Shown: in pieces, positions 29,944-33,133 of the stretch
How positions within the stretch are numbered: the stretch's first letter is position 1
Layout: the number at the start of each line of letters is the position of its first letter
NCBI RefSeq assembly: GCF_900100695.1
Contig: NZ_FNCF01000001.1
Span: 186,001-250,000, forward strand
DNA from: Klenkia brasiliensis
Lineage (GTDB): Bacteria; Actinomycetota; Actinomycetes; Mycobacteriales; Geodermatophilaceae
Reading direction: 5' to 3'
DNA: 64,000 nt
Notes under the pieces: generated by a model
The model's input: the letters and a program-made list of their open reading frames with translations, nothing else
What the model was told of the DNA's origin: nothing
Database searches by the model: none
Translations under genes and position numbers: made by a program

Positions 29944-31056
29944 ATGACCAGCACCGGACCCGACGCCCCCGCGCGCACGGGCGCGCCCGCCCCGCAGCCG
30001 CGCACCCGCCGGACCCCGGGGCCGGCCGGTTCCCCGCTGCACCCGGCCCCCCAGCGGCCCGAGGGTGCGCCCGTGGTCGGCTGCGGCGTGTACGTCGACG
30101 GCCACCGCGTCCCGGGCGTCGGACCCGACGACGCGCTGCGCACCGCCCGCGAGCGCGGCGGCTTCGTCTGGCTGGGGCTGCACGAGCCCACCGAGGAGGA
30201 GATCGAGGCCGTCGCCACCGAGTACGGCCTGCACCCCCTCGCCGTCGAGGACGCCGTCTACGCCCACCAGCGGCCCAAGCTCGACCGCTACGAGGACGGG
30301 GTGTTCGTCGTCCTCAAGACCGCGGCCTACGTCGAGCACGCCGAGCTGACCGCGACCAGCGACGTCGTCGACACCGGCGAGGTGATGGTCTTCCTCGGCG
30401 ACCACTTCGTGATCACCGTGCGGCACGGCTCCCACGGCGGGCTCGCCGAGCTGCGGCACCGCCTGGAGCAGCAGCCCGACCTGCTCTGCCTGGGCCCGTC
30501 GGCGGTGCTCTACGCCGTGGCCGACCTGGTGGTCGACCACTACGTGGAGGTCGCGCAGGCGATGGAGGAGGACGTCGACGAGCTCGAGGCCTCGGTGTTC
30601 TCCGCCGAGCGCACCGACGACTCGCAGCGGCTCTACCAGCTCAAGCGCGAGCTGATGCAGCTGCGCCGCGCGGTCACCCCGCTGGACCTGCCGATGCAGG
30701 CGCTCACCGACCGGCAGGCCGAGATCGTGCCCAAGGAGATGCGCTCCTACTTCCGCGACGTGCAGGACCACGTCTTCCGGGTGCGCGACCAGATCGCCGC
30801 CCTCGACGAGCTGCTCGGGTCGATCCTGCAGGCGTCGCTGGCCCGCACGTCGCTGTCGGACAACGAGGACATGCGCAAGATCTCCGCGTGGGCGGGCATC
30901 ATCGCCGTCCCCACCGCGATCGCGGGCATCTACGGGATGAACTTCCAGTACATGCCGGAGCTGAGCTGGCACTACGGCTACCCGCTGGTGCTGCTGGTGA
31001 TGGCGGTGGCCTGCGGCCTGCTCTGGCGCGCCTTCAAGCGCAGCGGCTGGCTGTAA
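29944..31056 (+). CDS. corA: Magnesium/cobalt transporter CorA
   Basis: A 370-residue pentameric Mg2+ channel. About 40 Pro/Ala-rich N-terminal residues precede the cytoplasmic funnel domain, with GFVWLGLHEPTEEEIEAVA and YGLHPLAVEDAVYAHQRPKLDRY. The long helix DDSQRLYQLKRELMQLRR leads to two C-terminal membrane helices. The selectivity motif YGMNF is at the end of the first, and a basic KRSGWL tail closes the protein. ATG 29944 follows GGAGGAG. Ni2+/Co2+ transport is possible as for other family members. Confidence 0.97.
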   Translation: MTSTGPDAPARTGAPAPQPRTRRTPGPAGSPLHPAPQRPEGAPVVGCGVYVDGHRVPGVGPDDALRTARERGGFVWLGLHEPTEEEIEAVATEYGLHPLAVEDAVYAHQRPKLDRYEDGVFVVLKTAAYVEHAELTATSDVVDTGEVMVFLGDHFVITVRHGSHGGLAELRHRLEQQPDLLCLGPSAVLYAVADLVVDHYVEVAQAMEEDVDELEASVFSAERTDDSQRLYQLKRELMQLRRAVTPLDLPMQALTDRQAEIVPKEMRSYFRDVQDHVFRVRDQIAALDELLGSILQASLARTSLSDNEDMRKISAWAGIIAVPTAIAGIYGMNFQYMPELSWHYGYPLVLLVMAVACGLLWRAFKRSGWL

Positions 31057-31097
31057 CCGGCCCCCCGCCGCGCGCGCCACACCTGTCCGCCCACCTG

Positions 31098-31159
31098 GGG
31101 TATCGGAAGCTCTACCCCGTCCCACGGCCGGATCGGCCTGGGTGGAGCTTCCGATACCC
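31098..31159. repeat. Inverted repeat IR-A upstream of the AbiEi/DUF559 gene
   Basis: The left arm GGGTATCGGAAGCTC (then TACCCC) begins at 31098. The right arm, its reverse complement GAGCTTCCGATACCC, ends at 31159, and the arm continues with one mismatch. The interior holds a smaller CCCA(c)GGCC/GGCCTGGG stem, so the whole 62 nt can fold as one hairpin. The same arm sequence recurs in IR-B at 32173-32226. Confidence 0.85.
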
Positions 31160-31239
31160 GCGGCCTGTGGACACCGACCGCTGTCCACAGATGTGCGCGG
31201 GACCCCCCACCAGCGCGCGCCGCACCCCACGCTGCGCGC

Positions 31240-32169
31240 GTGACCGACGAGGACTGGCCCGCCCGCATCGATCGCCTCCTGCGGCAGCAGCACGGCCTGG
31301 CCACCCGCCAGGAACTCCTGCGCGTGGCACCGGTGGGGGTCATCGACGGCTACGTCGCGAGTGGCCGTCTGCGCCGCGTGTTCCCGCACGTCTACACGGC
31401 GCGGGGGAACCCGGCCGTCGGTGACCGCCGGTTGCGGGCAGCTCTCGTGTGCGCCGGCGGCCTGGCCCTGCTGAGCCACACGACGGCGCTGGCCGTCCAC
31501 GGGGTCCGCGAGCACGCCGGGCCGGTGCACGTAACCATCGACGAGACCCGACGGCGGGCCGGCACCCGTGACCTCGTCGTCCACCGGCGGCTCGACCTCG
31601 CAGCCGCCGACCACGCTGCCGTGCGCGGCCTACCGGTGACCACCCTCGCGGACAGCCTGGTCGACGCCTGGCCGCTGCTCCCCCGCACCGGACGACGCCC
31701 GACCCTCATCGACGCGGTCCGTGACCACCGCCTGGACGCCGAGACGCTGCACCGGGCGACGACGCGGCGCCCGAACATCGGCGGGCACCGCGACCTGGTC
31801 CTCGCCGTCGACCTGGTCGCGGACGGGGTGCGCAGCGAGCTCGAGGCGCTCGGTGTCCTCCGCGTGTTCCGGCACCGGTCGCTCCCGAGGAGCAGGGGCC
31901 AGGTGCCCGTGCGGTGCCCGGACGGCATCACGCGCCACCTCGACCGGGCGTGGGAGGAGGCCATGCTCGCGGTGGAGCTGGACGGGGCGGCCTTCCACTC
32001 CTCCGCCCAGCAGCGGGCCGACGACCTCGCCCGCGATGCGCTCCTGGCGTCCATGGGCTGGTTGGTCCTCCGCTTCACCTACGCCGAGGTGCTGCGCGAC
32101 CCCGACGGTGTGCGAGCGAAGGTGCTGGCCGTGTACCGGATGCGCATGGCGCAGCTGCGGTCCGCCTGA
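31240..32169 (+). CDS. AbiEi-like wHTH protein with C-terminal DUF559 (PD-(D/E)XK nuclease-like) domain
   Basis: A 309-residue protein. The N-terminal 60 residues (IDRLLRQQHGLATRQELLRVAP, GRLRRVFPHVYTA) resemble the winged-helix domain of AbiEi-type antitoxins. A middle region LALLSHTTALAVHGV to GLPVTTLADSLVDAWP is typical of this actinobacterial group. The C-terminal DUF559 part has a conserved acidic/Arg pattern: HLDRAWEEAMLAVELDG, then H, RADDLARDALLASMGWLVLRFTYAEV. This is like Vsr-type PD-(D/E)XK folds. No toxin partner is adjacent. The role is unknown; it is bracketed by related hairpins IR-A and IR-B. Confidence 0.8.
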   Translation: MTDEDWPARIDRLLRQQHGLATRQELLRVAPVGVIDGYVASGRLRRVFPHVYTARGNPAVGDRRLRAALVCAGGLALLSHTTALAVHGVREHAGPVHVTIDETRRRAGTRDLVVHRRLDLAAADHAAVRGLPVTTLADSLVDAWPLLPRTGRRPTLIDAVRDHRLDAETLHRATTRRPNIGGHRDLVLAVDLVADGVRSELEALGVLRVFRHRSLPRSRGQVPVRCPDGITRHLDRAWEEAMLAVELDGAAFHSSAQQRADDLARDALLASMGWLVLRFTYAEVLRDPDGVRAKVLAVYRMRMAQLRSA

Positions 32170-32172
32170 GAC

Positions 32173-32226
32173 ATCGGAAGCTCTACCCACCCGCCGGGCC
32201 CACCGCGCTGGGGTAGAGCTTCCGAT
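32173..32226. repeat. Inverted repeat IR-B downstream of the AbiEi/DUF559 gene
   Basis: ATCGGAAGCTCTACCC (32173-32188) and its perfect complement GGGTAGAGCTTCCGAT (32211-32226) are separated by 22 nt. It lies 4 bp past the nuclease-like gene and 42 bp before the convergent rsmI stop, so it can serve both as a terminator. Its arms match IR-A in sequence and orientation. Confidence 0.88.
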
Positions 32227-32267
32227 ACCTGGTGCACGGGGGCGTCCGCGGCGGCGCGCCGGGGCGG

Positions 32268-33101
32268 TCAGGGGGTCTTGGCGGCGACGACGGCGTCGAA
32301 GACGACGCGCTTGGGCAGGCCGGTGCGGGCGACGACGGCCCGGATGGCGTCCTTGCGGGTCTCCCCCGCCGCCTCCTCGCGGGCCACCTCGGCGGCGATC
32401 TCCTCCTGCGTCAGGTCGGCCGGCCCGGCGGGGGCGCCGGCGACCACGAGGGTGATCTCGCCGCGCACGCCGTCCGCGGCCCAGGCGGCCAGCGACCCCA
32501 GCGTGCCGCGGACCACCTCCTCGTGCGTCTTGGTCAGCTCCCGGCAGACGACGGCGTCCCGGTCGTCGCCGAGGACGGCGGCGGCGTCGGCGAGGGCGTC
32601 GGCGAGCCGGTGCGGGGACTCGAAGAACACCATCGTGCGCGGCTCGGCGGCCAGGGCGGCGAATGCGGTGCGGCGGCCCTTGCGGGGCACGAACCCCTCG
32701 AAGCAGAACCGGTCGCAGGGCAGGCCCGACACGGCCAGCGCGGTGGTGACCGCCGAGGGCCCGGGCACCGACGTCACCTCGACACCGGCCTCGACGGCGG
32801 CGCGGACGAGGGTGTAGCCGGGGTCGGAGACCGAGGGCATGCCGGCGTCGGTGAGCAGCAGCACGGTCTGCCCGGCCTGCATCGCGGCCACCAGCCCGGG
32901 CAGCCGGGACACCTCCACCGTCTCGTGGAAGGTCACCACCCGGCCGGTGAAGGTGACCTCGAGGTCCTGGGCGAGCCGGTGCAGCCGACGGGTGTCCTCG
33001 CAGGCGAGCACGTCGGCGGACGCCATCGCCGCCCGCAGCCGGGGCCCGACGTCGCCGGGCTGCCCGAGGGGCGCGCCACCGAGCACCAGCCGTCCCGTCA
33101 C
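32268..33101 (-). CDS. rsmI: 16S rRNA (cytidine1402-2'-O)-methyltransferase
   Basis: A 277-residue SAM-dependent tetrapyrrole-methylase-fold enzyme modifying C1402 in the ribosomal P site. Motifs are LVLGGAPLGQPGDVGPRL, DVLACEDTRRLHRLAQ, LLLTDAGMPSVSDPGYTLVRAA, SVPGPSAVTTALAVSGLP, FVPRKGRRTAF, FFESPHRLADAL and CRELTKTHEEVVRG. The GTG at 33101 matches the usual family start; an ATG at 33128 is less likely. Divergent from pmt across 38 bp. Confidence 0.96.
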   Translation of the reverse strand: MTGRLVLGGAPLGQPGDVGPRLRAAMASADVLACEDTRRLHRLAQDLEVTFTGRVVTFHETVEVSRLPGLVAAMQAGQTVLLLTDAGMPSVSDPGYTLVRAAVEAGVEVTSVPGPSAVTTALAVSGLPCDRFCFEGFVPRKGRRTAFAALAAEPRTMVFFESPHRLADALADAAAVLGDDRDAVVCRELTKTHEEVVRGTLGSLAAWAADGVRGEITLVVAGAPAGPADLTQEEIAAEVAREEAAGETRKDAIRAVVARTGLPKRVVFDAVVAAKTP

Positions 33102-33127
33102 GGCACGAGACTGCCAGACCTTCCGCA

Positions 33128-33133
33128 TACCCT
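33128..33133 (+). promoter_or_regulatory. Leaderless promoter -10 box of pmt
   Basis: TACCCT followed by 6 nt and the GTG start at 33140. The 38-bp gap to rsmI leaves no room for a longer leader. Confidence 0.45.

Follow-up and report, generated by a model that had tools for sequence, protein, structure and literature searches.

The window, by which we mean the whole stretch of 64,000 nucleotides analysed here, comes from a Klenkia-like (Geodermatophilaceae) genome of 4.45 Mb (G000) and contains, between corA and an rsmI-like gene, a nuclease gene framed by two palindromes. The features of the locus are as follows.

31099..31158, no strand: left palindrome, family A, 60 bp, made up of GGTATCGGAAGCTCTACCC, 22 nt and GGGTGGAGCTTCCGATACC; the corA stop lies about 42 bp before it.
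31240..32169, plus strand: nuclease gene, 309 aa, GTG start, with an AbiEi-like winged-helix part and a Vsr/EDxHD-like (DUF559/MTES_1575) domain.
31252..31821, plus strand: AbiEi-like part, residues 5-194, the proposed reader of the palindrome (6y8q match, PADLOC AbiEi).
31828..32151, plus strand: Vsr/EDxHD homing-endonuclease-like domain, residues 197-304 (3hrl, 3r3p and 1vsr matches).
32170..32229, no strand: right palindrome, family A, 60 bp, made up of GACATCGGAAGCTCTACCC, 22 nt and GGGTAGAGCTTCCGATACC.
32268..33128, minus strand: rsmI-like gene, the convergent neighbour, which together with corA (ending at 31056) defines a conserved docking site.

The earlier note on this DNA had described a 16-mer that occurs four times as two inverted-repeat pairs flanking the gene, and these positions are confirmed. 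With up to three mismatches allowed, ATCGGAAGCTCTACCC is found exactly four times in the window, at 31102 (plus), 31140 (minus, with one mismatch), 32173 (plus) and 32211 (minus); shuffled sequence is expected to hold 0.19 copies, and none of 100 shuffles held four. The copies form the outer arms of two 60-nt palindromes, their arm starts 38 bp apart around a 22-nt centre, and the right palindrome begins one base past the TGA stop of the nuclease gene (32167-32169). Both rank at the top among the palindromes of about 60 nt in all 64 kb, and both are much more stably folded than their shuffles (z values of -6.7 and -6.9). An Rfam scan of the window returns two tRNAs and nothing else. Chance hairpins are ruled out by the shuffle counts, the window-wide ranking and the left-right matching of arms at 80 loci described below, and simple intrinsic terminators by a search for T-tract terminators that gave 0 terminator-like sites in 30900-32400.

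The ORF at 31240-32169 matches MTES_1575 and DUF559 in Pfam, and PADLOC AbiEi profiles match the N-terminal part of its product (E 1.7e-14). All structural matches rest on a predicted AlphaFold2 model (pLDDT 93.5), in which residues 5-194 are best matched by the AbiEi antitoxin 6y8q (Z 10.7 and rmsd 5.6 over 183 aligned residues), and residues 197-304 match NGO0050 (3hrl, Z 10.4), the homing endonuclease I-Bth0305I (3r3p, Z 9.8, rmsd 2.7 over 95 residues) and Vsr (1vsr, Z 7.3). This fits the earlier proposal of an AbiEi-like winged helix joined to a DUF559 nuclease: what is predicted is a DNA-binding module of the AbiEi type to which a Vsr/EDxHD homing-endonuclease-like domain is fused, and not a RAYT. 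The nuclease domain is probably active, since E202, D235, E246, H253 and D262 are invariant across 41 relatives; E202, D235, H253 and D262 are candidate counterparts of the E-D-x-H-D motif residues. The lack of a toxin partner, also noted earlier, holds: the neighbours are corA and rsmI, and no AbiEii toxin lies next to the nuclease gene here or in 24 further genomes. AbiEi itself is known to bind a pair of 23-bp inverted repeats separated by 3 bp, and comparable inverted-repeat pairs are bound by Rv2827c (PMC7319586).

Palindromes and nucleases are paired, and they diverge together. In 24 other genomes the interval between corA and rsmI contains an orthologue of the gene, framed by palindromes. 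Orthologues at this place come from eight further members of the Klenkia group as well as from Blastococcus, Geodermatophilus, Modestobacter and Trujillonella; all orthologues tested have this location, with the exception of L148. The two palindromes of these orthologues are alike within a genome and different between species, with arms that read GGTATCGGAAGCTC, GGCAAAGGAACCTC, GGCATGGGAGCCC, GCGGGAGGGGTACCCC, GGCATAGGAAGC and others according to the genome. At other loci, more divergent DUF559 genes (30-44% identical) are accompanied by very different pairs specific to them (e.g., GAGCGTGTGCGCTGACGCC, GCACTGTGCGCTGACTGCC and CGATGTCGGGGACATCGGGG), and Klenkia paralogues at about 30% identity are likewise framed by pairs of their own. 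At most loci the upstream palindrome lies about 80-160 bp ahead of the gene start. The presence of a palindrome is by itself a weak test in GC-rich DNA, where 32 of 140 background windows reach arm pairs of 12/16, and for this reason the matching of left with right arms was used. Among 80 DUF559 loci drawn from 84,980 species genomes, 50 have clear palindromes on both sides under a strict rule, and at these the similarity of left and right arms is 13.7/16 for a locus's own pair compared with 8.9 for swapped pairs (permutation p<=0.0005). Loci with more distant proteins also have more distant arms, with a Mantel r of 0.86 for 67 loci and of 0.41 when the corA-rsmI clade is taken alone; this correlation is confounded with shared ancestry, which contributes to both distances. 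Framing palindromes are likewise present around homologues from three other families of the order, and one further homologue is unframed. GTAG/CGTC ends are absent from family A, family B (see below) and the other palindrome families read, in which the palindromes measure 59-61 nt. At site III of K. taihuensis (L349, L153) the two framing palindromes match almost completely, centre included, which points to a recent duplication or to conversion between the two sides.

Palindromes of the same kind are dispersed beyond the nuclease loci. In the genome that the window comes from, roughly ten more sites carry the family A arm, nearly always as a 60-nt palindrome and mostly at gene 3' ends, and a second dispersed family, family B (GGCAGGGGAAGCCCTGCACCC, 61 nt), is present in seven copies. 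Family B loci with well-conserved arms include L207-L209 and L211-L213 in G000, L221-L226 in G079 and L274 in G083, and no cognate DUF559 gene for this family was found in these three genomes. Two of the copies in G000 (C13:92472 and C3:867770) are near-identical including the centre, which suggests recent copying. Among 28 dispersed palindromes from four Klenkia genomes, 14 lie in convergent, 11 in co-directional and 3 in divergent gaps, and 25 adjoin a stop codon, the median gap being 8 bp and most gaps staying below about 20 bp; the gene calls come from a simple codon-usage script, and single distances are approximate. Copy number depends on whether the gene is present. A scan of 115 Geodermatophilaceae genomes with a degenerate pattern that covers one palindrome family, the GGYANNGGARSC type, and allows spans of 49-79 nt finds 0-49 copies per genome, and the reversed control pattern gives at most one match in any of the 115; despite the range allowed, the span is 59-61 nt in nearly all matches listed. 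The median is 14.5 copies among the 32 genomes that have an orthologue, compared with 0 among the 83 that lack one (Mann-Whitney p 2.8e-14). At least four copies are present in 28/32 of the former and 12/83 of the latter (Fisher p 2.5e-13), an association that holds with the window's own genus removed (Fisher p 1.3e-10). These 12 orthologue-less genomes keep 5-19 copies, which we tentatively read as recent gene loss, the alternative being another maintaining force. In G078 and G084, dispersed GGCAAAGGAACC and GGCATGGGAGCCC palindromes are both present in each species, one type fitting the species' own corA-rsmI nuclease and the other fitting the nuclease of the other species.

Comparison of orthologous sites, by flank searches and by reading regions from relatives, reveals turnover of the palindromes. 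For example, site S6 carries family B in G000, family A in G083 and G081, and a B-like palindrome in G078; site S1 varies by species between A (twice), B, a B-like form and a plain hairpin resembling a terminator; and sites S2 and S3 have a palindrome in some species and are empty in others. Where orthologous sites share a palindrome family, the outer 28 positions are 94% identical and the centre 65%, so the arms are kept through selection or copying. No clear target-site duplication and no clean 60-bp insertion was found at the orthologous sites compared, and the single clean gain, at S2, measures about 120 bp, not 60 bp. The nuclease cassettes themselves share gene-end docking sites (I, II, III, IV, VI and VII), at which orthologous positions may be empty or may contain either a cassette or a lone palindrome, whether from the same family or from a different one. 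Site VI is illustrative: a cassette is present in G084, and G000 has a solo palindrome belonging to that cassette's family; G081 has a solo family A palindrome (judged from match position and flank); cassettes with different palindromes occur in G079 and G080; and the site is empty in G083 and G078. Of 22 family genomes that lack the orthologue, 18 hold a divergent DUF559 gene at corA-rsmI, in either orientation and in many cases with its own palindrome pair; the corA-rsmI site of G028 has one palindrome and no gene. At site I in G080 and G079 (L327, L328), about 0.7 kb separates the flanking genes and no DUF559 domain was detected in it. Docking sites II and VII without a nuclease (L335, L337, L368, L369) often show another palindrome, longer and nested, in which GATCAGG...CCTGATC encloses a GTCCGTCCTCC...GGAGGACGG hairpin; it reaches 98 nt in L369 and is possibly a further repeat family.

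The nuclease gene is inherited faithfully at its sites, with few replacements. A tree of 124 nucleases requires 11 changes of site, near the minimum of 8 and far from the shuffled mean of 59.5, and this rules out recent IS-like transposition of the whole gene. The corA-rsmI site is occupied by two distant nuclease lineages, as is site IV, and in Blastococcus TF02A-26 one corA-type nuclease gene sits at another location. Searches of mobile DNA found homologues on 0 of 72,556 plasmids and in 0 of 50,697 phages. The pattern resembles that of RAYT genes, which act more like housekeeping genes than transposases (PMC8266576). Some copies have an in-frame stop or match only in part (G079:C1:3512609-3513502, G079:C1:2199188-2200060 and L154 of Modestobacter sp. 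Leaf380), and cassette decay may be under way in these.

We consider it somewhat probable that the window locus belongs to a family of nuclease-palindrome pairs working like REP/RAYT, with an unrelated enzyme and a separate origin. In the mechanism that we propose, two protein molecules would read two inverted half-sites as double-stranded DNA, as AbiEi does at its 23-bp inverted repeats; the AbiEi-like part would read the palindrome, and the nuclease part would then cut at or near it. Repair or copying after the cut would spread palindromes to gene ends and keep the copies alike, occasionally the whole palindrome-gene-palindrome cassette would be moved into a gene-end docking site, and loss of the gene would leave a solo palindrome. 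A 60-bp palindrome of fixed length with two near-contiguous half-sites fits an AbiEi-type reader by analogy, and because this length is constant, it argues for double-stranded recognition in a fixed helical phase over recognition of a hairpin. Observations that point against the proposal are the lack of a clear target duplication, the gain of about 120 bp at S2, the conservation of family B arms where no cognate nuclease was found, and the 12 orthologue-less genomes with copies. As to the earlier suggestion of a REP/RAYT-like unit with an unrelated fold, its anatomy is strongly supported by the cognate pairs, the dispersed copies, the co-divergence and the AbiEi and Vsr/EDxHD parts, and the activities just outlined stay conditional. 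It should be noted that the earlier note had named two findings as speaking against such a reading, the repeat at many gene ends and flanks that differ between orthologues. Both are observed, and the reading nevertheless stands because the two flanks change in step, and the dispersed copies and the gene change along with them.

Much of the same evidence can be arranged differently, and the self-regulated defence gene put forward in the earlier note stays a rival reading. The palindromes could be operators of an AbiEi-derived regulator, with the upstream copy serving autoregulation, the dispersed copies a regulon or decoys, and the nuclease a solitary defence or stress enzyme, nothing in the system being mobile. 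AbiEi and Rv2827c do autoregulate by binding inverted repeats (PMC7319586), and the usual place of the upstream palindrome, the far greater conservation of arms than of centres and the similar nuclease domains contained in antiphage ProA/Hhe models also speak for this reading. A second palindrome usually follows the nuclease stop, however, the dispersed copies adjoin stop codons (25/28) and lie half of the time between convergent genes, which are poor positions for operators, and palindrome families are replaced at orthologous sites; we therefore regard this scenario as unlikely. We rate slightly lower still a homing cassette, in which palindrome, gene and palindrome move as one and solo palindromes are scars of recombination between the two copies, like solo LTRs. 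Such scars would account for the solo palindrome at site VI, of the same family as a relative's cassette, and for the lone palindrome at the gene-less site of G028; the predicted Vsr/EDxHD domain is that of a known homing endonuclease, and the matching copies at site III of K. taihuensis also fit. But solo copies (up to 49) far exceed cassettes, relatives have no cassette at the solo sites compared with S1, S2, S3 and S6 among them, and the 11 site changes against 59.5 expected mark the gene as very site-faithful.

That the palindromes are ordinary bidirectional transcription terminators, spreading or converging, which frame the nuclease by chance, is very unlikely. They are strong hairpins at gene ends and are swapped with plain terminator-like hairpins at orthologous sites, yet those of the window have no T-tract, the arm sequence is conserved beyond what pairing alone would ask, palindrome families follow nuclease subfamilies over the 80 loci and three further families, copy number depends on the gene, and at DUF559 genes the left and right palindromes resemble each other far more than swapped pairs do. 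The earlier option of simple paired terminators is accordingly abandoned, as it fails to explain why the palindrome sequence matches the nuclease; a terminator-like side role of the gene-end palindromes is possible.

The proposed family of nuclease-palindrome pairs has its closest known counterpart in REP/RAYT (REPtron, REPIN; TnpA-REP), in which a nuclease gene is framed by dispersed palindromes and the repeats co-vary with the enzyme (PMC3116915, PMC3733652, PMC8266576). Both systems have a dedicated nuclease gene flanked by palindromes from an extragenically dispersed family, and in both the gene is mostly single-copy per locus and vertically inherited, with repeats that co-vary with the enzyme between species. 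In contrast to REP/RAYT, the enzyme here is AbiEi plus Vsr/EDxHD and not an HUH Y1 tyrosine transposase; the palindromes are about 60 bp, of fixed length, single and untagged, instead of 20-40 bp with a GTAG/CGTC tag; several palindrome families occur per genome; and cassettes occupy common gene-end docking sites. Because the defining enzyme and tag are absent, the DUF559 system is not a member of REP/RAYT, and as far as sequence can tell it works like one. TIRYT/TIRtron elements also have an enzyme gene framed by repeats that form dispersed families (PMC3733652), but the enzyme is a tyrosine transposase and the repeats are TIRs, where here a complete palindrome stands on each side. With EDxHD/Vsr homing endonucleases such as I-Bth0305I, the system shares the predicted fold of residues 197-304 (Z 9.8) and occupied and empty alleles of the same site; unlike I-Bth0305I, it lies outside any intron or intein, has an AbiEi-type reader and has its own palindromes, flanking and dispersed. 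The AbiE type IV toxin-antitoxin system (6y8q, Rv2827c) shares the AbiEi fold predicted for residues 5-194 (Z 10.7) and differs in that here the toxin partner is absent, a nuclease is fused, and sites lie on both sides of the gene and genome-wide.

A broader reading is that such nuclease-palindrome pairs make up a new class of element, selfish or domesticated, in which an antitoxin-derived DNA reader was combined with a Vsr/EDxHD-like nuclease and a REP/RAYT lifestyle evolved independently. Every enzyme would then both spread and keep up a 60-bp double-stranded palindrome of its own at the ends of genes, and specificity would re-evolve so quickly that palindromes come to differ by species and by docking site. 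We put this forward tentatively, at a little under an even chance. No description of such a system was found in the literature covered, which lies mostly outside subscription papers. REP/RAYT has so far been the main example of bacterial palindromes linked to a dedicated nuclease, and a second, unrelated enzyme in the same layout would show convergent evolution and give an independent test system for probing how and why nuclease-palindrome pairs persist. The 67 usable loci offer protein-site pairs from which one could learn the code by which an AbiEi-type reader, when joined to a nuclease, recognises DNA. The proposal would also explain many strong gene-end hairpins of Geodermatophilaceae that would otherwise be filed as terminators, and would provide a candidate function for the widespread DUF559/MTES_1575 domain. 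The same MTES_1575 domain occurs in open frames of about 1800-2000 aa (L227 at G000:C7:665543 and L228 at G078:C10:61335); these multidomain proteins of about 2000 aa have no flanking palindromes and serve as an internal control. The domain also matches the antiphage ProA/Hhe models.
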